From the NCBI GenBank assembly GCA_902793405.1, contig CADBDH010000011.1, positions 62,001 through 126,000 on the forward strand: DNA of 64,000 nucleotides. Direction: 5' to 3'. This document shows positions 9,125 to 58,211 of this stretch, piece by piece. Every line of letters begins with the position of its first letter. Positions within the stretch are counted from its first letter, which is position 1. Origin of the DNA: an uncultured Bacteroidales bacterium (lineage in GTDB: Bacteria > Bacteroidota > Bacteroidia > Bacteroidales > Muribaculaceae). Under the pieces are notes generated by a model that saw only the letters and a list, made by a program, of their open reading frames with translations, did no database searches and was not told the origin of the DNA. The position numbers and the translations under genes are program-made.

Positions 9125-9838
9125 ATGGGACGAGAAAAAGTATTCCGATTCAAGCAGTTTGCCGTGGTCAATGACCGCTCGGCGATGAAGGTGGGTACCG
9201 ATGGCGTGCTGCTGGGAGCCTGGTGCCCCGTGGCAGGCGCTCATCGCGTGCTTGATGTGGGCACGGGTTGCGGTGTCATTGCCCTGATGATAGCCCAACG
9301 CAACAGTCATGCCGTTATCGATGCCATTGATATCGACCACGATGCTATCATCGAAGCTGCCTTCAACTTTGAGTCATCACCCTGGCCCCAGCGGCTCACA
9401 GCTATCGAGTGTGACTTCAACGGCATGGAAGTGAATGCCCGCTATGACCTTATCGTCTCTAACCCACCCTATTTCACTAACGGCATCTTGCCAACTGGCG
9501 ATGCCCGCACAGTAGCCCGTCACACAGCCTCACTCACTTATGGCCAACTCATCAGGGGCGCGTCACAGCACCTGACCGACGATGGTGCACTGGCACTCAT
9601 CTCACCAACCGATGCCGAAAGCGACATCATTGAGGCAGCCACGTTTGCATCACTTCCTGTCAAGGCCATGACACGAGTCCTGCCTGTCGAGGGCGCGAAT
9701 CCCAAGCGCACTCTATGGCTGCTGTCACGGAATGATGCATTTCCTTATCATGAAAATACACTCACGATAGCCCGACACGACGGCTCGTCCACCCGCGAGT
9801 ATATAGAACTCACCGGTGACTTCTACCTGAAAATGTAG
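9125..9838 (+). CDS. trmN: tRNA1(Val) (adenine(37)-N6)-methyltransferase
   Basis: A 237-residue Rossmann-fold SAM-dependent methyltransferase. Visible are FRFKQFAVVNDRSAMKVGTDGVLLGAW at the N-terminus (the YfiC/TrmN6 signature), the SAM-binding VLDVGTGCGVIALMIAQ, and the catalytic motif IVSNPPYF of N6-adenine methyltransferases. It is expected to methylate A37 of tRNA-Val. The start at 9125 reproduces the usual N-terminus; an upstream ATG at 9077 would include the promoter box. Confidence 0.9.
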   Translation: MGREKVFRFKQFAVVNDRSAMKVGTDGVLLGAWCPVAGAHRVLDVGTGCGVIALMIAQRNSHAVIDAIDIDHDAIIEAAFNFESSPWPQRLTAIECDFNGMEVNARYDLIVSNPPYFTNGILPTGDARTVARHTASLTYGQLIRGASQHLTDDGALALISPTDAESDIIEAATFASLPVKAMTRVLPVEGANPKRTLWLLSRNDAFPYHENTLTIARHDGSSTREYIELTGDFYLKM

Positions 9839-9897
9839 TATTATATAAGGTGTTTTGTCTTGATGGGTGATGGTAGGTACCAACAAAAAAAACAAAA

Positions 9898-9926
9898 GTC
9901 CCGTGACATTGGATGTCGATCGGGAC
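9898..9926 (-). terminator. Orphan hairpin with minus-strand T-tract
   Basis: GTCCCG pairs with CGGGAC and GACAT with ATGTC. On the minus strand the stem is followed by TTTTGTTTTTTTTG. No minus-strand gene lies immediately to the right, so its transcript is unexplained. It could alternatively end trmN on the plus strand, where there is no T-tract. Confidence 0.6.
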
Positions 9927-10129
9927 CTATATGTTCTGTGTCTCGTGATGCTTCGTCAGCAGTTTGACACAAAGTTGAAGTGTTTTATTATTAAGAAAAA
10001 GTCAGTTTTATTCGTTTGAAGCTTGAAAACTTCATTGAAGTCAATTTATAGACTATCGAATTATCTAAAAGTTTAATCCCATTCTCACATTTAACATTTG
10101 TTAAGACTTTGGCTTTAAAATGACTGTTC
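9927..10129. other. Gene-free AT-rich stretch between two terminators
   Basis: About 200 bp with no credible coding region. It lies between a minus-oriented hairpin at 9898-9926 and a plus-oriented terminator at 10130-10157. I found no TAnnTTTG box on either strand and no riboswitch I recognise. A small RNA is possible but unsupported beyond the terminators. Confidence 0.4.
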
Positions 10130-10157
10130 ATATCCCCATTTATGGGGATATTTTTTA
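10130..10157 (+). terminator. Rho-independent terminator upstream of feoAB
   Basis: ATATCCCC and GGGGATAT form a perfect 8-bp stem with a 6-nt loop followed by T5. It ends 24 bp before the feoAB -33 element and would insulate feoAB from upstream transcription. It is 290 bp beyond trmN. Confidence 0.8.
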
Positions 10158-10181
10158 TGCCAAAAACCTTAATAAATGGTA

Positions 10182-10212
10182 TTGTGTATGATGATTGTCT
10201 CCAGTAATTTTG
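10182..10212 (+). promoter_or_regulatory. Promoter of feoAB
   Basis: TTG at 10182-10184 and TAATTTTG at 10205-10212 are separated by 20 bp, an ideal Bacteroidota promoter. The box ends 27 bp before the ATG at 10240. I do not see a convincing Fur box, but one could be hidden in this AT-rich sequence. Confidence 0.78.
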
Positions 10213-10239
10213 CAAATTGAATAAATCTATCAAATTGAC

Positions 10240-12618
10240 ATGATAAACAAACAAGATAAAATCAACAACACTCACACGCGCCTGCTGGATAACGAACCAG
10301 TGGGCATGACAGTACAAGTCGTAAGAGTCATGGGCGACGGGGCATTCAGGCAGCGATTGCTTGAAATGGGCTTTGTGCGTGGTGCACAGGTGACCGTCCT
10401 CAAGAACGCCCCACTCAAGGATCCCGTTGAATATATGATATTGGGCTCGCACATCTCGTTGCGCCACAGCGAGGCGGCCCAGGTCGAAGTCACCGATAAA
10501 GACGCTGAATTCTGTGATATGGAAGATGCCTATAACGGCATCGTCGAGACCACTGTGGCCGGTGTTGACCCCATGGAGGACAACGTGCTGCGCATTGCCT
10601 TGATTGGCAACCCCAACTGCGGCAAAACATCGCTCTTCAACTGTGTGACCGGTGCAAAGGAAAAAGTGGGCAATTATGGCGGCGTGACCGTTGACAGCAA
10701 GGAAGGCTGGTTCAACATCGATGGCCGCAAGGTGCAGTTGGTCGATCTGCCCGGCACTTACTCGCTGACCGAGTATTCGCCCGAGGAGATGTATGTGCGC
10801 ACCTATATCCGTGACAACCATCCTGACGCTATCCTCAATATTGTCGATGCCGGCAATCTGGAACGCAACCTGTACCTGACCACCCAAATCATGGACATGA
10901 ACATCCCCATGGTCGTTGCCCTGAACATGTGGGACGAGATGGAAAAGAGCGGTGACCACCTCGACATCGAGATGATGAGCCGCTTGCTGGGTGCAAGGAT
11001 GGTGCCGTTGACCGCTTATAATGGCCACGGCGTGAAAGAGGTGCTGAAAGCAGCGATGGAGGCTATCGATGAGAGCGAACAGGAAACCCGGCACCACAAT
11101 GTGAATTACGGTGCTCTTATCGAGGATTGTCTGAAGGAGTTGGGAGAAATGTGCCCTACTCTGGACCGCTACACGGTATTGAAAATCATAGAGAACGACC
11201 AGCACGCCCTGGAGTTGATAAAAGGACAGGACAATGCCGACCTGGTCAGGAAAACCGCTGCCGAGATGCGGCAGCGTATCGAGCGCGATTATAACGATGA
11301 CATCGTGAGCATCGTGACCGACCTGAAATACGGTTTTGTGCGCGGCGCTCTGGCCGAAGCACTCACAGCAAATCCCGATAGAGCCATCGGCGAGACCAAA
11401 CCAGGTTACTCCATGGACCGCTTGCTCACCAACCGCTGGTTGGCCCTGCCCATCCTGCTGGTGCTGATGTGGCTGATGTTTGAAGCCACCTTCACCTTGG
11501 GCGCTTATCCCCAAGAATGGATCGAGAGCGGCATCGGTTGGATTGGTGAGTGGATCGGCAAAGCCATGCCCGACGGTATCCTCAAGGACCTGATTGTTGA
11601 CGGTATCATTGGCGGCGTGGGCGGCGTGCTCGTGTTCCTGCCCCAGATTCTGATATTGTTCTTTTTTATCTCATTGCTTGAGGATAGCGGATACATGGCC
11701 CGTGCGGCCTTTATCGTGGACCGAATCATGCACCGTGTGGGGCTGCACGGCAAGTCCTTCATCCCCTACCTCATCGGCTTTGGATGTGGCGTACCTGCCA
11801 TCATGGCAACCCGCACACTCGAGAACCGCCGTGACCGCATTGTCACCATCCTCACCATTCCGTTCATGTCTTGCTCGGCACGTCTGCCGGCCTATCTGCT
11901 GCTTGTAGCCGCATTCTTTACCGCCAAGCAGGGATTGATTTTGATGAGTATCTATCTGATTGGTATTCTGGTCGCTGCAATTACTGCCATTGTCTTGAGC
12001 AAGACAATTCTGAAGCATGACAAGACGCAGTTTGTAATGGAGTTGCCGCCTTACCGCAAGCCCACTGCCCGCAATGCCACCATTCACATGTGGAGCAAGG
12101 GCAAGCAGTACCTGCAGAAGATGGCCACCATCATCCTGGCAGCCTCGATTATCGTGTGGGCATTAGGCTACTTCCCCCGTCACGAGGGACAAACCCCGCA
12201 GGAACAGATCGAGAACTCTTACATGGGTATGATGGGTAAAGCCATTGAGCCTGTTGTCGCTCCGTTGGGCTTCAACTGGCAGATGGGCGTGAGCGTGCTC
12301 ACGGGAGCTGCCGCTAAGGAGATTGTGGTTTCGACAATGGGTGTGCTTTATACCGGCGAGTCTGATGCTACCGAAGAGAGCACGTCGCTCAAAGAGAAAC
12401 TGCAAACGGCCACAAAGGCTAACGGTGAACACGTGTTTGACCCGATTGTCGCCTATTCCTTCATGCTGTTCATCCTGCTTTATTTCCCTTGCATTGCCGC
12501 CCTTGCCGCTATCAGGCGTGAGGCTGGCACCAAGTGGATGGTGTTTGAGATATTCTACACCACCGGTGTGGCATGGCTTGTATCGTTCATCTTCTATCAA
12601 GTAGCAAGATTATTATGA
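10240..12618 (+). CDS. feoB: Fused FeoA-FeoB ferrous iron transporter
   Basis: Imports Fe2+ across the inner membrane. The 792-residue protein begins with an SH3-like FeoA domain (residues 15-90: VGMTVQVVRVMG, LEMGFVRGAQVTVLKNAPL). The FeoB G-domain follows with P-loop GNPNCGKT (residues 123-130), the GNYGGVTVD switch, DLPGTYSL and NMWDE. From about residue 385 come the transmembrane gate repeats, including GYMARAAFIVDR, GFGCGVPAIMATRTL and PFMSCSARLPAYLL. The FeoA-FeoB fusion is characteristic of Bacteroidota. It overlaps the next gene by ATGA. Confidence 0.97.
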   Translation: MINKQDKINNTHTRLLDNEPVGMTVQVVRVMGDGAFRQRLLEMGFVRGAQVTVLKNAPLKDPVEYMILGSHISLRHSEAAQVEVTDKDAEFCDMEDAYNGIVETTVAGVDPMEDNVLRIALIGNPNCGKTSLFNCVTGAKEKVGNYGGVTVDSKEGWFNIDGRKVQLVDLPGTYSLTEYSPEEMYVRTYIRDNHPDAILNIVDAGNLERNLYLTTQIMDMNIPMVVALNMWDEMEKSGDHLDIEMMSRLLGARMVPLTAYNGHGVKEVLKAAMEAIDESEQETRHHNVNYGALIEDCLKELGEMCPTLDRYTVLKIIENDQHALELIKGQDNADLVRKTAAEMRQRIERDYNDDIVSIVTDLKYGFVRGALAEALTANPDRAIGETKPGYSMDRLLTNRWLALPILLVLMWLMFEATFTLGAYPQEWIESGIGWIGEWIGKAMPDGILKDLIVDGIIGGVGGVLVFLPQILILFFFISLLEDSGYMARAAFIVDRIMHRVGLHGKSFIPYLIGFGCGVPAIMATRTLENRRDRIVTILTIPFMSCSARLPAYLLLVAAFFTAKQGLILMSIYLIGILVAAITAIVLSKTILKHDKTQFVMELPPYRKPTARNATIHMWSKGKQYLQKMATIILAASIIVWALGYFPRHEGQTPQEQIENSYMGMMGKAIEPVVAPLGFNWQMGVSVLTGAAAKEIVVSTMGVLYTGESDATEESTSLKEKLQTATKANGEHVFDPIVAYSFMLFILLYFPCIAALAAIRREAGTKWMVFEIFYTTGVAWLVSFIFYQVARLL

Positions 12619-14946: not shown

Positions 14947-15752
14947 GTCGTTTCTTGCTCTCTTTTGGCCACCAGTTCGTTGAACCGCAGCAGGGTTGTA
15001 CAAAATTCTTCGCTCAGCAGGGCAATGACGGGCTGAGTAATCTCGGCAGGAACCTCATCGACTGCCGAAGAGATTGATCCGGCAATGGCGGCAATCGTGT
15101 CGGCATCGCCAGCCAGGGCAACCGAGAGGCGCACCACGTCCTCATAGTCCTTACCCTCCATGAAGCATGTGATGGCTTCGGGCACCGTGCGCTGGCAGGT
15201 TTCATCAAAGGAGAATGTCGGGCGGATTTCGTCCAAAGTGCGTGACAGGTCATAGTTGAAAGTTCGGGTCACATAGTCGCGGATTTCCTCTTTGGACTTT
15301 CCCTGACGGGCGAGGAAGATGGCGGCGGCAGTGGCCTGGGCGCCCTTGATGCCCTCGGGGTGGTTGTGGGTCACCTCGGCCGATATCTTGGCCAGGTCCA
15401 GTGCCTCGTCAAGCGTCCTGGCATAATAGCCTATAGGGCTGACACGCATTGCCGACCCGTTGCCAAAGGAGTTGTAGGGCTGCGGATCATCGTCGTTTAT
15501 CCAGTTGGCGAAACGGCCTCCATAACCACGTCCAGGATATTTCCAGCACATGTCCAACATGATCCTGACCAGGCTTTCATGAGTGTGCTGTTCATCTTCG
15601 AGCAGCCACAGTGCATTGGCCATAGTGAGCACTGTGTCGTCGGTAAACGTGCTCTTTGGCGTGAATAACTCAAAATTGTGGTCACGCGTCGGGTTAAACT
15701 CATATGCCGACCCTATCACGTCGCCGGCAATGGCTCCAATAATTCCTTTCAT
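14943..15752 (-). CDS. ADP-ribosylglycohydrolase family protein
   Basis: A 269-residue DraG/ARH-type hydrolase that removes ADP-ribose from a macromolecule using two Mg2+ ions. Metal-binding motifs are visible: STFTDDTVLT near residue 35, and ALAGDADTIAAIAG near residue 215. The N-terminus IIGAIAGDVIGSAYE is typical. The substrate is unknown. It heads an operon with the RNA methyltransferase (4-bp overlap) and radA. This partnering is compatible with a role in nucleic-acid or repair-protein ADP-ribosylation, which is inference. Confidence 0.92.
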   Translation of the reverse strand: MKGIIGAIAGDVIGSAYEFNPTRDHNFELFTPKSTFTDDTVLTMANALWLLEDEQHTHESLVRIMLDMCWKYPGRGYGGRFANWINDDDPQPYNSFGNGSAMRVSPIGYYARTLDEALDLAKISAEVTHNHPEGIKGAQATAAAIFLARQGKSKEEIRDYVTRTFNYDLSRTLDEIRPTFSFDETCQRTVPEAITCFMEGKDYEDVVRLSVALAGDADTIAAIAGSISSAVDEVPAEITQPVIALLSEEFCTTLLRFNELVAKREQETT

Positions 15753-15779
15753 AATTAAATAATGTGTTTTTTGAGTTTA

Positions 15780-15787
15780 CAAATATA
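15780..15787 (-). promoter_or_regulatory. -7 box ahead of the ADP-ribosylglycohydrolase operon
   Basis: TATATTTG on the minus strand, 27 bp upstream of the ATG at 15752. No well-placed TTG was found. Confidence 0.45.
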
Positions 15788-15832
15788 CTGCTTTTTTACC
15801 ATATAGGGCACACTTCAGTGCACAATTTTATA

Positions 15833-16141
15833 TCAAGATGCCCATGGAATCAGGTACTGATGGCCGATTCGGGGCTGTGAGATAACGGCAGGCTGCATAG
15901 CGGCAGCGGGACGGCGCATGGTAGCCAATGCTGTCACGTCACGCCAGCCTTGAGTACAATTGCGCACAGTGAGCACTGCCACACCGGCAAAACGGCCTGT
16001 CAATTCCAGCAAGGCTCTCTTTACATCGTCCAAACTTGTGAAATTCACGCCAGTGATACTTGCCAGGCGGTTGCCGTTGCACTCGAGCGTGGCGCAGATG
16101 CTGTCACCATAATTCACGATGTTGTTCACGTTCTTGTTCAT
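15833..16141 (-). CDS. Small conserved-looking protein of unknown function
   Basis: I recall similar small Bacteroidales hypotheticals but no function. The 102-residue protein has no signal peptide or membrane segment. Its core reads like a small alpha/beta domain: IVNYGDSICATLECNG, LASITGVNFTSLDDVKRAL, then VAVLTVRNCTQGW. The tail after residue 75 is Ala/Pro/Arg-rich and probably flexible. An unusually good Shine-Dalgarno (AAGGAGGA on the minus strand, 16148-16155) precedes the ATG, rare in this phylum, suggesting strong translation. It is monocistronic and divergent from the TonB-receptor operon. Confidence 0.75.
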   Translation of the reverse strand: MNKNVNNIVNYGDSICATLECNGNRLASITGVNFTSLDDVKRALLELTGRFAGVAVLTVRNCTQGWRDVTALATMRRPAAAMQPAVISQPRIGHQYLIPWAS

Positions 16142-16172
16142 AGTCGTTCCTCCTTATTTTGTTTTTACACTG

Positions 16173-16180
16173 CAAAGGTA
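16173..16180 (-). promoter_or_regulatory. -7 box of the small orphan gene
   Basis: TACCTTTG on the minus strand, 32 bp upstream of the ATG at 16141. The spacing to the nearest TTG is poor, so the -33 element is not assigned. Confidence 0.5.
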
Positions 16181-16341
16181 AAGAGGACGAGTGCCAATTT
16201 TTTGCACTGCAAATACAAAAAACGATAAATCGACAATTTGGTGTTTGACTATCCCTAGAAAATGTTGACAGATTTGACCTCATTTTTAGGTATTGCGCAT
16301 GCCTTTGATTGCGAGTAATTTTATACTCCAAAATCAATGAG

Positions 16342-19071
16342 ATGCAAATTATTAGAAATATCATACTATTCCTATCGGTTCTGACCGTACAATTGGCTGA
16401 TGCTCAAGTGTTCATCAGCGGCACTGTGCTGGATGCCGAGACACTGGAGCCCATTATCGGTGCTACCATCGCCAACGCGAAATCGGGTAAAGCCCTCACC
16501 GTCACTCAAGCCGACGGTACATTCAGCATACCTAAAAATAGTGAGGTCCAATTGAAAATCTCCTCCATCGGCTATAAGACGCTAGTTACCGTCCCCACTC
16601 CAGACGGCCGTTACCTGTTGCATGCCGAGGTGAGTCAGCTGGGTGAAGTAGTCGTGACAGCCCAGGAAAACCGTGGACTGACCACATCTTCCAAAATCGA
16701 GAAGCATGCGATGGAGCATCTGCAACCGTCGAGTTTTGCCGACCTGTTGGAGCTGATACCCGGTGGCCGCAGCATCGATCCGTCGCTGAGCACGCCCAAC
16801 AATATCCACATCCGTGAAATCTCCACAGGCAACAGCAACTATGCCACCTCGTCGTTGGGCACCAGCTTCATCATCGACGGTGCCCCCGTCTCGACCAATG
16901 CCAACATGCAATACCTTGCCGGTGCATGGGACGATATGGCCACCAGCCGCGACAATACCAACGCCGGTGTGGATATGCGTGGAATCTCGACCGATGATAT
17001 CGAGAGTGTCGAGATTGTGCGTGGTATCCCCTCGGTAGAGTATGGCGACCTGACCAGCGGATTGGTCAAAATCGAACGCCGTCGTGGCGGACACGATATG
17101 AAATTCCGCCTGAAGGCCGATATGGGTTCCAAACTGCTGTATGCCGCCAAGGATTTTGAATGGGAAAAACGGCACTTGACCCTTAATGTGAGCGCCGACT
17201 ATCTGGATGCTAAGGCCGACCCCCGCAACAAGTTAGAGAACTACAAACGAGTGACTTTTTCCACCCGATTGCACAAGCGCTGGGAAAAAGAGGATTATCA
17301 ACTGGCCTTTACTTCCAATCTTGATTTCTCCAGGTCGCTTGACAATGACAAAGAAGATGTCGACCAGACCTACAGTGCCGAAGATTCCTATAAGTCGAGT
17401 TACAACCGCTATGCCTTGCTGACTGCGTTACAGTTCAAGATGAAACGTCCATCATGGCTCAAGTCGGTTGACCTGACCTTCTCGTCATCGATCGAAAAAG
17501 ACCTGATAGAGCGCACTAGGCTGGTGCAACTGTCGCGTATGACCGTCGCTCCCTTGTCGAAGGAAGAAGGTGAGAACGATGCCTATATCCTGCCCTTCAG
17601 ATATCTCGGCCACCACAAGGTCGAAGGAAAGCCTGTGAATGCCTATGTCAAGGTGAATGCCCGCCTGCAGATTCCCAATAACACCGTGTCGAACACACTG
17701 CTGCTGGGTGTCGACTGGAACTTGGATAAAAACCTGGGCCGCGGACAAGTGTTCGACCCTCACACCCCTGTCTATACCGGTATCTCGTCGCGCGCACGTT
17801 CCCTTAAGGAGATTCCTGCCAACCATCGCCTGTCGGCCTATGCCGAGGAAAACATCAAGTGGCCCACCCCTGCAGGCACCTTCGAAGTGTCGGCCGGCAT
17901 CCGTGCCACCAATATGCTGAACATTGATAAGGCTTATACCATGAACGGCAAAATCTATCTGGATCCGCGTGCCAATGTGGGCTATTCCCTGCCACGGTTG
18001 TCGGTGCTGGGCAAACCCCTGTTCGTTCGCATCGCTGCAGGTATCGGCCAGCATACCAAGATGCCCACCATGGAGCAGCTATTCCCTGACCTGCTGTATA
18101 TCGACTTTATCCAGTTGAACTACTATCACGACAATCCTGATTATCGTCGCATCAACCTGATGACCTATATCGTGAACCCGCGCAATCTGGCATTGGAGCC
18201 GGCCCGTAATCTCAAAAAAGAGTTGTCGCTCGATGTCAATATCGAGGGTAACAGGCTGTCCATTAACGCCTTCCGCGAGAAGATGACATCCGGATTCCGC
18301 ATGCAGTCATATTACCAGAGCTACCAATACAAGCAATATGACGCCAGTGGCATCGATGCTGCCACGTTGACCTCACAGCCAGCGTTAGAGTCCCTACCCT
18401 ACACGGTCATCAACGAACTGGCTGGCTACGGCAATTACACCAACGGCAGCATGACATTGAAGGAAGGCGTCGAATACACCATCGAGACCAAGCGCTTTCC
18501 CGTCGTGCTGACCCGCCTGACCATCAACGGAGCTTACTTCCGCACGACCTATAACAACTCGATTGTTGAATCCTACCGCCCCAGCCAGGTCATTGACAAT
18601 CGCCAAATCCAGTATGTGGGCCTGTATGCCGACGATGACGGTTCGGTGAGGGAGTCGTTCAACACCAATTTCACCCTTGATACCGACATTCCCCGGCTGA
18701 AGCTAGGCTTCTCGCTGTCGGCGCAATGTCTGTGGTTTACCACTTCGCAGCGTAAAGAGGTGAGCAACTATCCCGTCCAGTACATTGCCCCTGATGGCAC
18801 TGTGCACGATTGGCAGGCCAGCGATGCCGACGACATGTATTTGCGCTGGCTCGTCAGGGACTACTCGGCCTCGTTGTTTGAGAAAAACCGCGTACCCTTT
18901 GCCATGAACGTGAACATGAAGGTGACCAAGAAACTCTTTGATGACCGCATGAACGTTGCCATGTTCTGCAACAAATTGTGGGACTACACACCCGACTATG
19001 ACAGCCGCGGAACCACCATCCGCCGTCATGTGACCCCGTATTTCGGATTAGAAATGAACATCAAGATATGA
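16342..19071 (+). CDS. TonB-dependent outer-membrane receptor
   Basis: A 909-residue receptor for energised import across the outer membrane. After the signal peptide (ending LADAQ) comes a carboxypeptidase-regulatory-like domain (residues 25-100: ISGTVLDAETLEPIIGATI). The plug domain follows (LGEVVVTAQENRG; IREISTG; SVEIVRGIPSVEYGDLTSG), then a 22-stranded type barrel to the end. It is not accompanied by a SusD partner, so it is not a classical glycan SusCD pair. It heads a five-gene operon ending in a secreted M16 protease, pointing toward a peptide or protein ligand. The start at 16342 places the ATG directly before the signal peptide. Its stop overlaps the next ATG. Confidence 0.93.
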   Translation: MQIIRNIILFLSVLTVQLADAQVFISGTVLDAETLEPIIGATIANAKSGKALTVTQADGTFSIPKNSEVQLKISSIGYKTLVTVPTPDGRYLLHAEVSQLGEVVVTAQENRGLTTSSKIEKHAMEHLQPSSFADLLELIPGGRSIDPSLSTPNNIHIREISTGNSNYATSSLGTSFIIDGAPVSTNANMQYLAGAWDDMATSRDNTNAGVDMRGISTDDIESVEIVRGIPSVEYGDLTSGLVKIERRRGGHDMKFRLKADMGSKLLYAAKDFEWEKRHLTLNVSADYLDAKADPRNKLENYKRVTFSTRLHKRWEKEDYQLAFTSNLDFSRSLDNDKEDVDQTYSAEDSYKSSYNRYALLTALQFKMKRPSWLKSVDLTFSSSIEKDLIERTRLVQLSRMTVAPLSKEEGENDAYILPFRYLGHHKVEGKPVNAYVKVNARLQIPNNTVSNTLLLGVDWNLDKNLGRGQVFDPHTPVYTGISSRARSLKEIPANHRLSAYAEENIKWPTPAGTFEVSAGIRATNMLNIDKAYTMNGKIYLDPRANVGYSLPRLSVLGKPLFVRIAAGIGQHTKMPTMEQLFPDLLYIDFIQLNYYHDNPDYRRINLMTYIVNPRNLALEPARNLKKELSLDVNIEGNRLSINAFREKMTSGFRMQSYYQSYQYKQYDASGIDAATLTSQPALESLPYTVINELAGYGNYTNGSMTLKEGVEYTIETKRFPVVLTRLTINGAYFRTTYNNSIVESYRPSQVIDNRQIQYVGLYADDDGSVRESFNTNFTLDTDIPRLKLGFSLSAQCLWFTTSQRKEVSNYPVQYIAPDGTVHDWQASDADDMYLRWLVRDYSASLFEKNRVPFAMNVNMKVTKKLFDDRMNVAMFCNKLWDYTPDYDSRGTTIRRHVTPYFGLEMNIKI

Positions 19072-19451
19072 AACACCACATTCTATATTTCACCCTAATT
19101 GTGCTGGTACTGACAGCGGCCGCTTGTGCTCCGGTAGAAGATGACATCTTCACTACCGCGCGAGTCACCGTCGCAGCCGGCGATGAAACCGTTATCACGC
19201 GCGTTCAGGCACAGGCCAAACTGACCAACGTGAACACGCGCCAGGTGCTGTCGAGTGCCGATTTTGAGGGACCCAGTGTGACCGTCGAACTGCTGCGTGG
19301 GGCCTATCAGATCAACATCGAGGGTGTCGTGACCTGCCAGCAGGCAGATGGCCAGACACGCATGCGCCAATTCCGTTGCCAAAGCGATTATGCCGAGTTT
19401 GTCCGCGATGGCGTCAATGACATCACGCTCAACATCATATTCCTCGACTGA
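19068..19451 (+). CDS. Small lipoprotein of the receptor/M16 operon
   Basis: A 127-residue lipoprotein: signal peptide and lipobox TAAAC place the acylated cysteine at residue 20. The mature part looks like a single beta-sandwich domain (AQAKLTNVNTRQVL; VTVELLRGAYQINIEG). It resembles the N-terminal domain of the DUF4876 lipoprotein two genes downstream, which has ATLTNVQTKQA and LEAGTYNVTVNG in the same order. Function unknown. It starts inside the receptor stop codon (ATGA), so the two are translationally coupled and probably act together at the outer membrane. Confidence 0.85.
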   Translation: MKHHILYFTLIVLVLTAAACAPVEDDIFTTARVTVAAGDETVITRVQAQAKLTNVNTRQVLSSADFEGPSVTVELLRGAYQINIEGVVTCQQADGQTRMRQFRCQSDYAEFVRDGVNDITLNIIFLD

Positions 19452-19452
19452 C

Positions 19453-20955
19453 ATGAAACGCCTATACTTATTCATCATCATCTTCATGACCTTCAAGATT
19501 GGGGCGACGGCCTCCAATGCCGATTCGGCACTGGTTGAGCACACGTCAATAGACCAGTTGACCATGCTTGAAGCGATGCGCAATCCCGCCTTGCATGGCT
19601 CGGGTTACCGCACTCCTTTCTCGCAACTGTCGTTGGGCATCGACCTACTGCGCCAGTCTCAGGCTTTCGTGTTGGAAAAAGGAACCGGTTATACCCTGCC
19701 CTACATCAAGGTAGATACCTATCATCACTTGAATGACCGTTCTGCCGTTTGGGGCAGCGCTTCCTATATGACGGGCAAGCAGCACAACGTCAAGTGGAAC
19801 TCCACGAGCGACTATGACCTGCTGGAGCCGTATGTGCTTGCTGACACGGCCGGCGGAGACACGCACCGTGAGCGATATGCCATTTCGGGCGGATATGCCA
19901 CGCACATCGCCCGATGGCAGCTCGGTGCCGAGATGCTGGTGCGAGCCGAACAGGAATACCGTGACCGTGACCCGCGCATGAGGGGCATCGTCACTGACTT
20001 GACGATGCGACTGGGAGGTGGCTACGACTGCGGCAACTACCGCCTTGGTGCTGCTGTCGAAGCGAACATCTACAAGCAGACCAACAGCGTAGCCTTTTAC
20101 CGTGAAGAAGGCGTCATTCCCGAATACCAGATGACCGGATTGGGCACGGAGTACAGCCGTTTCTCGGGCGACAAACGCAGCCTCTATTACGATGGTGGCG
20201 GCCTGGCATTGCTGCTCCACCTGTCCCCCGCCGACCATAACGGCATCTATGGCGACATCTCGCTTGACGAGCACCGCTATCACCGGAAACTCGCCGAGTT
20301 CAACTCCATGCCGCTTACCGACCTGTATGATGAGCATGTGGGCGGCACTATTGGCTGGAAACGTCAGACTGCCAGCAATCGCAAGATGGCTAGCTGGGCC
20401 CACGTTGACTACACTCGCCGCACGGGCAATGAGCACGTGGGCGGCACCTCCGATGCCCGCTATTTTCCCGTGATTGCCTGCTTGACGATGTACAAGCAGC
20501 ACTTGTTCGATGCCCACACGGGCTTCCTGTACGGCAAGGGCAAATGGTCGGCCATGTTGAAGGCCGGTTACAGATCAAGCAACGAAAAGTATGTCTATCC
20601 CCGTAGGCAAATGGACTTCAGTCATGTCTATGGCGGGCTCCTGGGGCAGTGTTTCCTGCGACCGTCCGGCAAACTGCTGTTGACGATGGATGCCCACGCA
20701 TCACTATATTTCAAGACGGATGACAAACTCTCTTTGCCTGTTGCCAACATGAGCACCCCGTTCATCCAGTTGATGCAGCACAAGCACGAATATGCTTCGG
20801 CCAATTACACTGACCTCGGGGCTAAAGTGCGTGCTGATCTGGCTTGGAAACAATCCCGTTATGGCCTGTTTGCCGAAGCGGGATGCTCCGTGACCCTCTG
20901 CTCCACACGAGAGCATGCGACACTGATACACGGTTCTGTCGGAATCACATTTTAA
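19453..20955 (+). CDS. DUF6850-like outer-membrane beta-barrel protein
   Basis: A 500-residue protein with an N-terminal signal sequence (MKRLYLFIIIFMTFKIGATA). Many amphipathic strands with aromatic ends follow (KGTGYTLPYIKVDTYHHL; AMLKAGYRSSNEKYVYP), and the last residues are HGSVGITF, a typical barrel terminus. I connect it from memory with the DUF6850 family that sits beside DUF4876 lipoproteins in Bacteroidales. No function is established that I know of. The start at 19453 comes 1 bp after the preceding stop; upstream in-frame codons belong to the previous gene read in another frame. Confidence 0.8.
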   Translation: MKRLYLFIIIFMTFKIGATASNADSALVEHTSIDQLTMLEAMRNPALHGSGYRTPFSQLSLGIDLLRQSQAFVLEKGTGYTLPYIKVDTYHHLNDRSAVWGSASYMTGKQHNVKWNSTSDYDLLEPYVLADTAGGDTHRERYAISGGYATHIARWQLGAEMLVRAEQEYRDRDPRMRGIVTDLTMRLGGGYDCGNYRLGAAVEANIYKQTNSVAFYREEGVIPEYQMTGLGTEYSRFSGDKRSLYYDGGGLALLLHLSPADHNGIYGDISLDEHRYHRKLAEFNSMPLTDLYDEHVGGTIGWKRQTASNRKMASWAHVDYTRRTGNEHVGGTSDARYFPVIACLTMYKQHLFDAHTGFLYGKGKWSAMLKAGYRSSNEKYVYPRRQMDFSHVYGGLLGQCFLRPSGKLLLTMDAHASLYFKTDDKLSLPVANMSTPFIQLMQHKHEYASANYTDLGAKVRADLAWKQSRYGLFAEAGCSVTLCSTREHATLIHGSVGITF

Positions 20956-20992
20956 CAAACATATTCATTAAATTATTTAAAGTAAAAACGAA

Positions 20993-22231
20993 ATGAAAAA
21001 GTTATTCTTGAAAAGCATCGTCATGATGCTCACTGCAACTTTGTTTTTAACCTCTTGCTCGGGCGATGACCCCATTCCCGTAATCCCCACCGCAACGGTT
21101 ACCCTTGAAATTCCCGCCAATCTGGAGAACGCCGTTCTCTCGGGTGCCGTGGCCACATTGACCAACGTCCAGACCAAACAAGCCACTAAAGTCGAGGGCA
21201 GCAAATTTGTCAAAGAAGGCAACAACTATAAGGTGATGCTCAATAACCTTGAGGCCGGCACCTATAATGTCACGGTCAACGGCCATCTCGATTTCACCCT
21301 GAAGGGTGTTGCAGGACAAAAGGATTTTGAGGTCAGCTCAGAGAATGTGGTACTCAACGAGACAACCACTGCCCTGAAGATGACCGTTTCGACCTTCACA
21401 GCACAGGGCGGCTTCGTCATCAGCGAGATCTTCTTCACCGGTTCATCGACGGCCGACGGCAAGTCATACAGCGGCGACCAGTACATCATCATCACCAACA
21501 ACTCGGATGTCACCCTGTATGCCGACAGCATTGCTGTGCTGGAATCGGCATTCCTGACCACGACCAAGGAGGATTACACCCCCGACATCATGTCCACCCA
21601 CTTCTCGGTACAGGCTTGCTATATGATTCCCGGCACCGGCAGGAGTGTTCCTGTTGAGCCTGGTGAGAGCCTCACGCTGGCAGTCAACGCTATCGATCAC
21701 ACGGCCGAGCAACCGGGTTCCATCAACTTGACCGATGCCGACTATGAGTTCTTTGATGAGACCTCCAACCCCAACTTTACCGACCCCGACGGTACTGCGC
21801 CCAATCTGGACAAGTGGTACTGCTACACTGCTACCATCTACCAGTTCCACAGCCGCGGTTTCAACTCGATGGCCATTGCCAAGATGCAGACCAGCAAGGA
21901 GGATTGGCTGGAGAACTATGTGTATGACGCCACCTATCTGTTCGTGTTCGGCGATTTCTCGAGGGAGATGACCAAGAGTGGCATCTACAAGGTGCCCAAC
22001 GCGTGGATTCTTGACGGTGTAAACCTGAGTGTGGAGTCGGTACGCGAGTGGAACGTGCTTGATGCCTCGATTGACGCCGGTTGGACCTATTGCGGCAAGG
22101 TGGATCGCGACGAGACCCGCTTCAACAAGTCGGTTATCCGCAAGCAGGATGCCAGTGGCAAGTATATCGACACCAACAACTCGACCAATGACTTCACTCC
22201 CGAAGCACCCGCTTCGCTGTTCAACAAGTAA
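20993..22231 (+). CDS. DUF4876-type lipoprotein
   Basis: A 412-residue lipoprotein (lipobox LTSC, Cys near residue 21). After an acidic linker comes a transthyretin- or carboxypeptidase-regulatory-like beta domain (residues 35-125). A larger domain follows, beginning GGFVISEIFFTGSS and continuing DQYIIITNNSDVTLYADSI, reminiscent of lamin-tail-like surface domains. I assign DUF4876 from memory of such proteins beside receptors and M16 proteases in Bacteroides. Likely exposed on the outer membrane as an accessory to the receptor encoded upstream; that is inference. Confidence 0.8.
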   Translation: MKKLFLKSIVMMLTATLFLTSCSGDDPIPVIPTATVTLEIPANLENAVLSGAVATLTNVQTKQATKVEGSKFVKEGNNYKVMLNNLEAGTYNVTVNGHLDFTLKGVAGQKDFEVSSENVVLNETTTALKMTVSTFTAQGGFVISEIFFTGSSTADGKSYSGDQYIIITNNSDVTLYADSIAVLESAFLTTTKEDYTPDIMSTHFSVQACYMIPGTGRSVPVEPGESLTLAVNAIDHTAEQPGSINLTDADYEFFDETSNPNFTDPDGTAPNLDKWYCYTATIYQFHSRGFNSMAIAKMQTSKEDWLENYVYDATYLFVFGDFSREMTKSGIYKVPNAWILDGVNLSVESVREWNVLDASIDAGWTYCGKVDRDETRFNKSVIRKQDASGKYIDTNNSTNDFTPEAPASLFNK

Positions 22232-22236
22232 GATTG

Positions 22237-25044
22237 ATGAAACGTAACATTTTATCACTTATTATACTGGTGCTGCTGCCCTTGTGGGTGGCAGCCCAGT
22301 TGCCTCAGGATCCAAGTGTGCGCAAGGGTACCCTGAAGAACGGAATGACCTACTACATCCGTCACAATGCCAAAGAAGCAGGTCTCGCCGATTTCTACAT
22401 CGCCCAGCGTGTAGGCTCAATCCTTGAGGAGCCCCGCCAGCGCGGTCTGGCACATTTCCTGGAGCACATGGCCTTTAACGGCACCAAGAACTTCGCTGGC
22501 AAGAACGGCAAGCCGGGCATCGTGCCCTGGTGCGAGAGCATCGGTGTGAAATTCGGCGCCAACCTCAATGCCTATACCTCGGTTGACCAGACCGTTTATC
22601 ACATCGGTTCGGCTCCCCTCGTCCGTGAGGGAATCATCGACTCCTGCCTGCTCGTGCTGCATGACTGGAGCCACTACCTGTTGCTTGAAGACGAGGAAAT
22701 CGACAAGGAGCGCGGCGTCATCCATGAGGAATGGCGCACTCGCCGTGCCGGAATGGCCGTGCAACGCATGCAAGAGGACGTGTTGCCCATTATCTACAAG
22801 GGTACAAAATATGAGGACTGCATGCCCATCGGCTCGATGGACATCGTTGACAACTTCCCCTATCAGGACCTGCGCGACTATTACCAGAAGTGGTATCGCC
22901 CCGACCTGCAAGCCATCGTAGTGGTGGGTGACATCGACGTTGACAAGATGGAAAAGAAAATCAAGAAGATTTTCTCGCCCATTCCCATGCCCAAGAAAGC
23001 GGCCGAGCGCATCTATTATCCCGTTGATGACAACGACAAGATGATTGTCGCCATCGAGAAGGACGCCGAGCAGCCCATCGTGCTCTGCCACCTGTACCAG
23101 AAACGGGATGCTACGCCCGACAACGAGAAGGACAGTGAGGCCTACCTGCGCGGCAGCTATATCGACGACCTCATCAGCACCATGCTCAATGACCGTTACG
23201 CCGAACTGCGCCAGCAACCCGGCTCGCCCATCCAGAGCGCCACGGGGCGCGCGTCCACATTCTTCATCAGCCGCACCAAGGAAGCCTTTGCCTTGAGCAT
23301 CAGCTGCAAGCAGGACAACATCCTGGGCGGCATTATCGCTGCCGTAGGCGTGGCCGAGCAGGCCCGCCAGCACGGCTTTACCCAGAGCGAACTGGACCGT
23401 GCCAAGAAACTTTTCCTCAATGCCGCCGAGCGCCGCTACAACATGCGCGACGATTACCGCAATTCCCACTACGTCAACTCATGCGTGAGCCACTTCCTGG
23501 CCGGTGAACCGCTGGTGTCGGTGGAATATGAGTTGGAAAACACCCGCAAACTTGACCATGAGGTTACGATTGAAGAAGTCAACAACGCCGTCAAGGAACT
23601 GATTACCGACCAGAATCAGGTTGTGGTCATGTATGCTCCCGACAAGGACGAGGTCATTCTTCCCGACGAGGGTCAGATTGAGCAGGTTATCGTGGCTGCC
23701 CAGCGCCTCTCTTATGCACCCTATACCGAGCAGGTGCTGAGCGACCAGCTGATTGGCCAACTCCCTCAGCCCGGCACCATCGTCAGCGAGCAGCCCTATC
23801 GCCACGGCTTCACCGAGTACACGCTGTCCAACGGCATGAAGGTGTATGCCCGCAAGACCGATTTCAGCGCCGACGCCGTTTCACTGGAGATCAAGGGAGA
23901 AGGCGGCACTTCGCTCTATGGCGACGAAGACATTCCCAATTTCAACATCCTTTCCAGCAGTGTGACCGAGGCTGGTGTGGGCGACTATGACGTCCTCACC
24001 CTGCGCAAGATGCTCACCGGCAAATCGGTGCGCGTGAGCCCGTCGGTGGGCTCCGAGGGTCAGAGCATCAACGGCGGTTCGTCGGTCAAGGACATGAAGA
24101 CCATGTTTGAATTGGCTTACCTGTACTTTACCTCGCCACGGCGTGATACCACGGCATTCAACGAGTTCATCAGCCGCAACCGCGCTTTCCTGACCAACCG
24201 CAATGCGTCGCCCAAGGTGGATTACAACGACTCAATCCGGGCCATCCTGTACAACCACCATCCGCGCACCGAACCGATGGTGCAGTCCACACTCGACCGC
24301 GTGAACTATGACCGCATCCTGGACATCTATCGGGAGAGCTTCAGCGACGCTTCCAATTTCAAGACGGTCATTATAGGCAACTATGACGTGAAGGAGTTGC
24401 GCGCTTTGTTATGCCAGTACCTGGCTACCTTGCCTTCGACCGGCAAGCATGCACAGACCGACTATGGCAAACTTCCGCAAATCACGGGTGGCCAGTCGGT
24501 GCACAAGTTCAGCAAGAAGATGGCGACACCGCTGGCCAACGTGAGCATCTTCTATACAGCCGACGTGCCATTTACTGCACAGAGCGACCTGGAACTGGAC
24601 TTCCTGAAGCGTTGCCTCTCTATCGCCTATACCGACTCGGTGCGTGAGGAGAAAGGCGGCACCTACGGCGTGAGCGTGGACTTTGAGCTGGCCAAGGAAG
24701 ACCGGCCCAATGCCACCTTCAAGATCTCGTACAATGCCGACCCCGACCGCTACGAGGAACTCAACCCGATTATCTACCAGCAGTTGCAGAACATTGCTGA
24801 TAACGGGCCTCTTGAATCCAGCATGTCGAAGGTCAAGCAATACTTGACCAAGCAGTATGCCCAGATGGCTATCACCAACGACTATTGGAGCTACATCATC
24901 TGGCACGAACTGGACGATGAGGTCGATTTTGATCGTGACTATTGCAAAATGGTTACTGAGATGACGGCAGGAGATGTGCAACGCATGGCACAGCGCCTGC
25001 TTGCCGCTAAACGCTGCATCGAGGTCACCATGCTCTCGGAGTAA
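22237..25044 (+). CDS. Secreted M16 (pitrilysin/insulinase) zinc protease
   Basis: The 935-residue protein has a signal peptide (ending LWVAAQ) and two M16 halves. The first carries the inverted zinc motif HFLEH (H73, E76, H77) and downstream glutamates in KERGVIHEEW. The second half (from about residue 520, YTLSNGMKVYARKTDFSADAV) is the inactive partner with the family's R/Y substrate-binding segment near EEKGGTYGVSVDF. M16 enzymes enclose and cut peptides or small unfolded proteins. It closes the operon and is probably periplasmic. The ATG at 22237 is preferred to an in-frame TTG 3 bp earlier. Confidence 0.94.
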   Translation: MKRNILSLIILVLLPLWVAAQLPQDPSVRKGTLKNGMTYYIRHNAKEAGLADFYIAQRVGSILEEPRQRGLAHFLEHMAFNGTKNFAGKNGKPGIVPWCESIGVKFGANLNAYTSVDQTVYHIGSAPLVREGIIDSCLLVLHDWSHYLLLEDEEIDKERGVIHEEWRTRRAGMAVQRMQEDVLPIIYKGTKYEDCMPIGSMDIVDNFPYQDLRDYYQKWYRPDLQAIVVVGDIDVDKMEKKIKKIFSPIPMPKKAAERIYYPVDDNDKMIVAIEKDAEQPIVLCHLYQKRDATPDNEKDSEAYLRGSYIDDLISTMLNDRYAELRQQPGSPIQSATGRASTFFISRTKEAFALSISCKQDNILGGIIAAVGVAEQARQHGFTQSELDRAKKLFLNAAERRYNMRDDYRNSHYVNSCVSHFLAGEPLVSVEYELENTRKLDHEVTIEEVNNAVKELITDQNQVVVMYAPDKDEVILPDEGQIEQVIVAAQRLSYAPYTEQVLSDQLIGQLPQPGTIVSEQPYRHGFTEYTLSNGMKVYARKTDFSADAVSLEIKGEGGTSLYGDEDIPNFNILSSSVTEAGVGDYDVLTLRKMLTGKSVRVSPSVGSEGQSINGGSSVKDMKTMFELAYLYFTSPRRDTTAFNEFISRNRAFLTNRNASPKVDYNDSIRAILYNHHPRTEPMVQSTLDRVNYDRILDIYRESFSDASNFKTVIIGNYDVKELRALLCQYLATLPSTGKHAQTDYGKLPQITGGQSVHKFSKKMATPLANVSIFYTADVPFTAQSDLELDFLKRCLSIAYTDSVREEKGGTYGVSVDFELAKEDRPNATFKISYNADPDRYEELNPIIYQQLQNIADNGPLESSMSKVKQYLTKQYAQMAITNDYWSYIIWHELDDEVDFDRDYCKMVTEMTAGDVQRMAQRLLAAKRCIEVTMLSE

Positions 25045-25068
25045 TCTCCAAATTCCCTTTATAGCCCT

Positions 25069-25103
25069 TGCCCCCAAGTGTTTTCACCTAACATTTGGGG
25101 GCA
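25069..25103 (+). terminator. Terminator of the receptor/M16 operon
   Basis: TGCCCCCAA pairs with TTGGGGGCA around a 17-nt loop, 25 bp after the M16 stop. It is followed by a short TTTG only, so it is a moderate terminator. Confidence 0.7.
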
Positions 25104-25133
25104 TTTGTCGTGATAAATACCTAAAAATGATGA

Positions 25134-25164
25134 TTGCCGGTTTGGATAGGGACTACTAATTTTG
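25134..25164 (+). promoter_or_regulatory. Promoter of the hemerythrin-LuxR regulator
   Basis: TTG at 25134-25136 and TAATTTTG at 25157-25164 with a 20-bp spacer. The ATG follows 20 bp after the box. Confidence 0.75.
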
Positions 25165-25184
25165 CTGCAACAACACGCAACACG

Positions 25185-26144
25185 ATGAAGAGCCAAAAGA
25201 TATATGAAGCAACCGACCAGATGATTTCCCTCATCGGCGACAATTATAATCTGCTGCAGGCTCTGGGTGCTTTTGGCATCAGCCTGGGCTTTGGCGATAA
25301 GACGGTGAAGGAAACCTGCGAGAGCAACGGCGTGGACACCCACACCTTTCTCACCGTGGTCAATTATGCCATCAACGGCATTGGCGTAGCCGAGGACGAT
25401 GAACTCATCTCAGTATCTACCCTGTTGCATTATCTGGAAGCCAGCCACGCTTATTTCATCGATTTCCAGTTGCCGTACATCCGCCGCGAGCTGGAGGAGT
25501 CGCTCAACGAGGAGAATTCGCTGGCCCAGCTCATCATGAAACTCTATGACGAGTATGCCCATGAAATCAAGCGCCACATGAACTATGAGCAGCAGACGCT
25601 GTTCCCCTATGTGGAAAAGCTGCTTGAGGGGCAGCCCGCCAGCGACTACAATGTGGAAACATTCTCCAAGCATCATGGTGCCGCCGACCAGCAGTTGAGG
25701 GAATTGAAAATCCTCATCATCAAGTATCTGCCACAAGACGGGTTGCACAACAACCAGCTGACGGCCACACTTCACGATATCTACGAGAACGAGGAATGGC
25801 TAACCCAACATGCCAAGGTCGAGGACCACATCTTCGTTCCCGCCATCCGGCGCCTGGAACGGCTCGTCAAGCATGGTGACGTGACACGCAACATCACCAA
25901 CATGGTATTTAAGGATGGTGCGCAAAGTACCGAGACGCTCTCACAGCGCGAAAAAGAAGTTATCGTCGCCGTCGTCCAGGGCATGGCCAACAAGGAAATT
26001 GCCAACCATCTTGACATCTCGGTCAATACCGTCATCACACACCGACGCAACATCGCCCGCAAACTTCAGATCCACAGCCCTGCAGGACTGACCATCTATG
26101 CCATAGTTAACGGCCTGGTGGATATCAACGCCGTGAAACTGTAG
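25185..26144 (+). CDS. ScdA/hemerythrin-LuxR fusion transcriptional regulator
   Basis: A 319-residue three-part protein. Residues 18-60 (LLQALGAFGISLGFGDKTVK, then ETCESNGVD) resemble the N-terminal ScdA/DUF542 domain of RIC iron-centre repair proteins, but the usual CC pair is absent. Residues 80-225 form a hemerythrin-like four-helix bundle with candidate di-iron ligands H88, H126, H131, E135, H163 or H164, H209 and H215. Residues 250-312 are a LuxR-type helix-turn-helix (TLSQREKEVIVAVVQGMANK, then EIANHLDISVNTVITHRRNI). It should be a DNA-binding sensor of oxygen, NO or iron through the di-iron site; that role is inferred. It is monocistronic with its own promoter and terminator. Confidence 0.88.
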   Translation: MKSQKIYEATDQMISLIGDNYNLLQALGAFGISLGFGDKTVKETCESNGVDTHTFLTVVNYAINGIGVAEDDELISVSTLLHYLEASHAYFIDFQLPYIRRELEESLNEENSLAQLIMKLYDEYAHEIKRHMNYEQQTLFPYVEKLLEGQPASDYNVETFSKHHGAADQQLRELKILIIKYLPQDGLHNNQLTATLHDIYENEEWLTQHAKVEDHIFVPAIRRLERLVKHGDVTRNITNMVFKDGAQSTETLSQREKEVIVAVVQGMANKEIANHLDISVNTVITHRRNIARKLQIHSPAGLTIYAIVNGLVDINAVKL

Positions 26145-58060: not shown

Positions 58061-58211
58061 AATTTATCCCGAATTTTCTAAAGTTTTTCAAAAAATTTTT
58101 CAAATATCTAATTTTCAGGTATTTAGATTTTTGATGGCCGAGAAATGTTTTCCAAAAGTCAAACGAAGGTGATTTAAAAGTCTCTCAAAACAAACAACTT
58201 GCATAAATCAA

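Follow-up and report, generated by a model that had tools for sequence, protein, structure and literature searches.

A DUF4876–DUF6850 operon with a PqqL-like M16 protease in a Muribaculaceae genome: a possible Fus-like import system of the Bacteroidota

What would a TonB-dependent receptor import when it is encoded with two lipoproteins, a second outer-membrane barrel and a protease of the M16 family? The question is raised by a five-gene operon at positions 16342–25044 of a 64,000-nucleotide stretch of contig CADBDH010000011.1, from an uncultured Bacteroidales bacterium of the Muribaculaceae (this whole stretch is the window, and coordinates refer to it). A sequence-only reading had proposed that the operon is a possible protein or peptide import system, on the pattern of FusA/FusC of Pectobacterium and YddB/PqqL of E. 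coli. The operon and its end are made up as follows.

16342–19071, plus strand: TonB-dependent receptor of 909 amino acids, with an N-terminal CarbopepD_reg_2 extension and a Plug domain (Pfam)
19068–19451, plus strand: lipoprotein of 127 amino acids, a relative of the DUF4876 N-terminal domain (hhalign)
19453–20955, plus strand: DUF6850 (PF21012) outer-membrane barrel of 500 amino acids (Pfam E 1.1e-93; AlphaFold2 model)
20993–22231, plus strand: DUF4876 (PF16215) lipoprotein of 412 amino acids (Pfam E 7.4e-56)
22237–25044, plus strand: M16 metalloprotease of 935 amino acids, assigned to the PqqL/FusC subfamily (Pfam Peptidase_M16 and M16_C)
25069–25103, plus strand: terminator-like hairpin of 14 pairs with a T-rich tail (hairpin search)

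All five reading frames are open and run in the same direction, with distances of −4, 1, 37 and 5 bases from each stop to the next start, and the hairpin at their end has the longest stem of the five terminator-like sites found on both strands of the window (their number is in itself no evidence, since shuffled sequences had 7.9 on average). The tight operon described earlier was therefore borne out. It is not a product of chance, because the same five-gene order recurs in divergent genera, which was the conservation that the sequence-only reading had asked to see. Family searches with E values up to 0.1 found no SusD/RagB family in any of the five proteins, in agreement with the earlier claim of a receptor without SusD, and for this reason a SusCD or polysaccharide utilization locus reading was dropped. 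No Rfam match fell within positions 15700–25400.

In the reading that we favor, which we hold tentatively and would place close to an even balance, the operon encodes a protease-associated import system of the Bacteroidota that acts in the manner of Fus, taking in an iron-bearing protein or long peptide and cutting it in the periplasm. In particular, the DUF4876 lipoproteins, one full-length and one consisting of the N-domain only, would capture the cargo at the cell surface, the TonB-dependent receptor would draw it across the outer membrane, and the PqqL-like M16 protease would cut it in the periplasm, freeing the metal or cofactor together with peptides. The DUF6850 barrel would be a constant outer-membrane partner of the receptor and lipoproteins, serving as a scaffold or as a second channel. 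Surface location, import, the identity of the ligand, cleavage and the release of iron are what we infer.

Directly seen are the gene order, the protein families, the conservation of a receptor–DUF4876–DUF6850 trio in scattered Bacteroidota, the varying partners beside it and the conserved protease motif. We examined 170 neighborhoods in four overlapping, selected sets: 35 from relatives (all 34 DUF4876 loci plus one barrel contig), 35 phylum-wide (of 47 DUF6850 matches above the cut-off, after setting aside that of the window and 11 more that were mostly weak), 80 from named genomes (the best 80 among at least 535 hits to DUF4876) and 20 from the genus that includes Prevotella disiens (of 54 matches above the cut-off, hand-picked from the stronger part). 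The phylum-wide and P. disiens sets were picked by DUF6850 alone, and the other two by DUF4876, whose presence there is given. We scored 131 of the 170 neighborhoods (26, 28, 58 and 19 by set, in the order above); in 7 no barrel was found and 32 were too short. Receptor and DUF4876 genes lay on the strand of the barrel at 28 of 28 phylum-wide loci and 19 of 19 P. disiens loci, and, where a barrel was found, at 25 of 26 loci of relatives and 58 of 58 named loci. DUF4876 occurred in 31 of the 61 genomes of the relatives set, as did DUF6850 above its cut-off, with the window's genome counted. The receptor, DUF4876 and DUF6850 are a core that is found patchily in the Bacteroidota, and the partner beside the core varies.

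Partners were counted within 6.5 kb using hidden Markov models built from these same loci, with genes called by a longest-open-reading-frame rule. M16 proteases accompanied the core at 55 of 131 loci (15, 2, 30 and 8 in the same set order), cytochrome c peroxidases of the CCP_MauG family at 13 (0, 8, 5 and 0) and ATP-binding cassette (ABC) ATPases, on either strand and not always as part of a full PepSY module, at 22 (2, 5, 15 and 0), and 24 loci had none of the five partner kinds scored (2, 9, 6 and 7). M16 was found together with a peroxidase at 0 of 131 loci, with an ABC ATPase at one (L154) and with a HEAT protein at one (L136). A preceding count of the named set under looser criteria had given M16 at 33 of 62 loci and none with both M16 and ABC, compared with 30 of 58 and the single L154 in the later one. 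Representative partners matched CCP_MauG (E 4.7e-51), HEAT_2, DUF4857, PepSY_TM_like_2 and ABC_tran in Pfam, all 13 peroxidases carried two CxxCH motifs (di-haem), and at L076 a 4Fe-4S polyferredoxin adjoins a trio of the M16 type. As a rough estimate, an M16 gene would fall within six neighboring genes by chance in about 2% of cases, from about 9 M16 genes among an assumed 2,700 or so; this is far below 55 of 131, a fraction that relatedness and selection inflate, the phylum-wide set alone giving 2 of 28. Where the small lipoprotein was present, M16 accompanied the core at 7 of 10, 1 of 1, 17 of 21 and 6 of 6 loci (relatives, phylum-wide, named and P. disiens), compared with 8 of 16, 1 of 27, 13 of 37 and 2 of 13 where it was absent. 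Loci of the window's type thus usually have an M16, which is not true of the core in general. The sequence-only reading had held that an M16 gene usually unlinked from the receptor would speak against import, and this describes the core overall but not loci that, like the window, have the small lipoprotein.

Published expression of relatives points to iron as the likeliest reason for import. In low iron, PG1019–22 rose 20.8–214.5-fold, BT3625–33 rose 36.7–128-fold and BT1933–39 rose 3.5–7.4-fold (Lewis and Gui 2023, PMC10434189). The legend of Fig. 1C in that paper groups PG1019–21, BT_1938–9 and a locus from P. intermedia 17, and according to its text expression of this operon increases in each of the three species. 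P. intermedia OMA14 has a 'TonB-dependent transport system' with five tags, PIOMA14_I_0804–08, which rose 5.2–33.2-fold and may be the Fig. 1C locus (PMC10434189). The solved structure 4q1z, a relative of the window's DUF4876 lipoprotein, is that of BT_1938. A P. gingivalis DUF4876 gene changes with hemin with the same sign as hmuY (PMC10470040), and PG_1019 and PG_1020 are listed beside hmuY among changed genes (PMC10101095). These operons share a receptor and DUF4876 with the window, and BT3625–33 has ABC, PepSY and DUF4857 genes (PMC10434189), as do the ABC-type trio loci found here. The window differs from the BT operons in having M16 instead of ABC/PepSY or HEAT genes and in having a separate N-domain lipoprotein. 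A host or dietary protein, as suggested earlier, may be the cargo, with iron being the better-supported theme.

These data also bear on nutritional import resembling that of RagAB, in which any oligopeptides would be taken up as a source of nitrogen and carbon and trimmed by M16. That a receptor, lipoproteins and a secreted protease share one operon would suit this explanation, and several of the nearest named records are genomes from rumen metagenomes. The window's receptor also resembles those of RagAB/SusCD systems in its N-terminal extension, its lipoprotein partner and a weak TIGR04056 match (77.5 bits against a cut-off of 368). However, the operon has no SusD/RagB lipoprotein and has an extra barrel and an M16 protease, the expression of relatives follows iron, and the same core occurs elsewhere with peroxidase or ABC genes in place of a protease, so that we consider general peptide feeding decidedly unlikely.

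The comparison with Fus that underlies the import reading stood in part. Grinter et al. (2019) found FusC in 12 of 24 receptor clusters among Fus-like clusters of Proteobacteria and cytochrome c peroxidases in multiple Fus clusters without FusC, and suggested that the peroxidases may reduce the imported protein, releasing its iron cofactor (PMC6793856). The window's operon is like Fus and YddB/PqqL in combining a TonB-dependent receptor and an M16 protease of the same subfamily in one cluster, and the trio is like Fus in having cytochrome c peroxidase in some protease-free clusters. The receptors, in contrast, do not correspond. YddB, a distant homologue of FusA with 24% identity (PMC6793856), matched the window's receptor with an E value of 0.17 in BLASTP, and it was the lowest of six E. 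coli receptors against a profile of 13 trio receptors in both HMMER and hhalign (BtuB 46, CirA 43, FepA 33, FhuA 11, FecA 2 and YddB −2 bits). On these scores the receptor falls outside the YddB-like family, the comparison having been made with YddB and not with FusA itself, and filing the operon as a Fus member was rejected. The window's receptor also carries a CarbopepD_reg extension at its N terminus, the operon adds DUF4876 lipoproteins and a DUF6850 barrel, and it has no TonB-like (FusB) or ABC-type gene among its five. Since the receptor is unlike YddB, the likeness to Fus is functional and not familial; judged by its sequences, the operon is analogous to Fus rather than a member of it. 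No title or abstract opening among the matches listed for the TonB-receptor, M16 and Fus literature described the operon.

Against the receptor profile, BtuB, CirA and FepA ranked well ahead of YddB, and this raises a second possibility: the trio would form a receptor complex for a siderophore or haem, and the substrate of M16 would be a peptide siderophore, a small peptide that binds haem or a peptide imported alongside. The iron induction of relatives would fit such a complex, and the PepSY_TM, ABC ATPase, DUF4857, di-haem peroxidase and L076 polyferredoxin neighbors of the trio suit a metal complex equally well. Against this, M16 chambers act on polypeptides, as is established for the family, and two lipoproteins with an extra barrel would suggest a bulky ligand. 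We know of no siderophore system that requires an M16 protease, and we regard a small-ligand complex as unlikely.

The protease itself is best placed by its sequence in the PqqL/FusC subfamily. Its nearest solved structure is 9ldy ('Peptidase, M16 family'; 693 bits), for which we traced no paper, followed by E. coli PqqL (221.9 bits), the FusC entries 6b03, 6brs and 6b05 (95–98 bits) and pitrilysin 1q2l (34.7 bits), the identities of 6B05 and 1Q2L being those given in PMC12731061. It has the zinc motif HFLEH at residues 73–77 and a glutamate, E165, that shares an EEW context with E167 of PqqL (active-site position from PMC12731061), and its N terminus, judged by eye, resembles a signal peptide. 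A loose HxxEH...E pattern is present in 65 of 66 trio-linked M16 proteins of more than 800 amino acids, the single miss being L056, whose N terminus is split off. In L056 and in L271, L158, L198 and L216 the M16 is in two or three pieces, through a broken gene or an assembly error.

A tree was built from 73 of 99 collected rows, after removal of 13 fragments of fewer than 600 amino acids and 13 other rows (records almost identical to another, duplicate copies of a gene, broken genes and one distant M16), with background M16 proteins from eight genomes and E. coli. An M16 was called linked if it exceeded 700 amino acids and lay within a retrieved trio locus; L251, L241 and L247, counted as 'unlinked', are not far from a trio. 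The 51 linked M16 proteins required 4 label changes, compared with a mean of 19.3 after shuffling, and formed two large clades with unlinked paralogues between them, L076 and L136 standing apart. Holding the two large clades together was rejected marginally by the approximately unbiased (AU) test (p-AU 0.038), for which 51 of the 73 rows were used after removal of 6 long-branch rows, including the linked L076, and 16 near-copies. This hints that the linked M16 was recruited more than once. Several contigs or loci hold more than one trio (G323:C49, with L136 and L251; L138; L178). G323 has, about 15–20 kb from the first set, another M16 and another DUF6850 match that is weaker (L251 lies near this match), and at G031:C34:104959 and 110026 (L241 and L247) PqqL-like M16 proteins lie about 8 and 14 kb past a trio without an adjacent M16.

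The tree bears on a third explanation, in which the trio is unrelated to M16 and the protease serves quality control or maturation of the operon's surface proteins, or defense against antimicrobial peptides. At least four further PqqL-like M16 proteins are encoded without a trio in the window's genome, and 76 of the 131 scored trio loci have no M16, as this explanation would allow. The clustering of linked M16 proteins on the tree argues against it, as does the finding that redox enzymes occupy the place of M16 elsewhere, which is also what was published for Fus clusters (PMC6793856). We judge it the least probable of the explanations considered.

Several points weigh against Fus-like import of an iron-bearing protein. 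The unlinked paralogues just described show that PqqL-like M16 proteins are common without the trio, and therefore membership of this subfamily is weak evidence of import. DUF6850 was above its cut-off in just 37 of 395 genomes of a phylum-wide draw (the window's genome counted), and in the phylum-wide set M16 accompanied 2 of 28 scored loci and 9 had none of the partners looked for. The mutual exclusivity of M16 and peroxidase largely tracks taxonomy, with named peroxidase loci in Flavobacterium and Tenacibaculum and M16 loci largely in Bacteroidales. Apart from the zinc protease, Pfam named no domain in the operon that binds metal or haem. BT3625–33 is described with ABC and PepSY genes and BT1933–39 with a HEAT gene (PMC10434189); gene content is partly stated for the P. 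gingivalis and P. intermedia loci, and the iron data cover relatives rather than known M16-type operons. Finally, ligand, transport and cleavage are predictions drawn from gene order and protein families.

If Fus-like import is nevertheless what the operon performs, whole-protein import across the outer membrane would recur beyond some Proteobacteria, by means of an unrelated receptor in the Bacteroidota, a dominant phylum of the gut and mouth. It would suggest a role for iron-induced, uncharacterized DUF4876/receptor operons in Porphyromonas and Bacteroides and a function for DUF4876 and DUF6850, a question that is testable in B. thetaiotaomicron.

The two lipoproteins noted in the earlier reading are both present, with one correction. 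The small lipoprotein matches the N-terminal domain of the operon's own DUF4876 protein (hhalign probability 98.2%, E 3.2e-14); the operon therefore contains one full-length and one N-domain-only copy, and a new family for the small protein was rejected. The lipobox cysteine is followed by APVEDD in the small lipoprotein and by SGDD in the DUF4876 lipoprotein. Acidic residues at this position recall the surface-export signal of Bacteroidota lipoproteins. A crude finder that takes the first fitting cysteine, and so misplaces some, gave two or more acidic residues there in 57 of 132 DUF4876 proteins and 23 of 38 small lipoproteins, compared with 0 of 12 for a neighboring OB-fold lipoprotein; 49 DUF4876 proteins and 9 small lipoproteins had none, partly because the finder picked the wrong cysteine.

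The AlphaFold2 model of the DUF6850 protein is a porin-like barrel of about 18 long strands (pLDDT 88.2, pTM 0.85). Porin, CymA, Occ and FadL-like barrels all scored alike in fold comparison, and therefore no function follows from the fold. Our literature search found no paper on DUF6850.

Three further features flank the operon.

16283–16329, plus strand: promoter block made up of TTTTTAGGTATTG followed by the inverted repeat CGAGTAATTTTATACTCC; it starts 59 bases before the receptor ATG and is conserved within the window's clade
25116–25127, minus strand: another copy of TTTTTAGGTATT, located after the operon terminator and before the hemerythrin-LuxR gene
25185–26144, plus strand: hemerythrin-LuxR protein, a candidate local regulator, adjacent to the operon

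The inverted repeat of the promoter block has the form GAGTA...TACTC, and several relatives have a TACCT...AGGTA dyad. TTTTTAGGTATT has three sites in the 3.19-Mb genome (one for the reversed pattern), two of which flank the operon (16283–16294 and 25116–25127). The third (G000:C26:81978; L297 9979) lies 19 bases before an OstA/LptD-like gene, judged by eye, and may be due to chance. Around 146 trio receptor starts, TTTTTAGGTATT occurred 23 times exactly and 17 times with one mismatch, compared with means of 0.03 and 2.0 for 30 permuted patterns; with two mismatches there was no clear excess (22 against 20.9). Many of the motif-bearing loci are close relatives or duplicate records, and they include Prevotella, Segatella and another family (L112). 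A genome scan that allowed one mismatch gave 10 sites, compared with 5 when the pattern was reversed, and thus found no wider regulon. A matrix derived from the sites scored at least 19.9 at 32 of 33 trio sites, compared with at most 13.2 at seven hmuY loci; two further sites in the window scored 18.0 (minus strand at 16524, within the receptor gene) and 16.7 (position 58101).

Of the neighborhoods searched, 19 contained the hemerythrin-LuxR gene, every one of them of the M16 type: in 18, from the window's clade and including duplicates, the gene lies downstream of M16, and in L166 it lies upstream of the receptor and points the other way. Its product is a candidate sensor of iron, oxygen or nitric oxide, and we infer that it binds the TTTTTAGGTATTG element. 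These observations raise the possibility of an independent form of iron piracy in the Bacteroidota, in which a surface complex of receptor, DUF4876 and DUF6850 imports whole iron proteins that are opened by one of the two kinds of enzyme also seen in Fus clusters, a PqqL-type protease or a di-haem peroxidase, and in which the window's version is switched by the local hemerythrin-LuxR protein through TTTTTAGGTATTG. We regard this fuller proposal as doubtful.

Two candidates from the literature were set aside. The structure 8b61, considered as a P. intermedia protein, is HmuY-Bf-3 (PMC12106395), and its best match in 398 genomes is 72% identical. For BfpR/HfpR of F. psychrophilum, the passages of PMC9331221 consulted mention no trio, and the terms cytochrome c peroxidase, PepSY, lipoprotein and M16 are absent from the paper.

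Other proteins also recur beside the trio. A secreted protein of about 600 amino acids is found next to M16-type as well as ABC-type trios; of 5 copies tested, 2 gave marginal beta-propeller matches (SBBP) that fell below the cut-off. At six loci of the same genus (L057, at 9738–11972, L066, L067, L071, L074 and L075) the trio is followed not by M16 but by a secreted protein of about 404–418 amino acids, which had no Pfam match in the one tested (L074). At L057–L059 this protein is accompanied by a dockerin/FGE-sulfatase protein.

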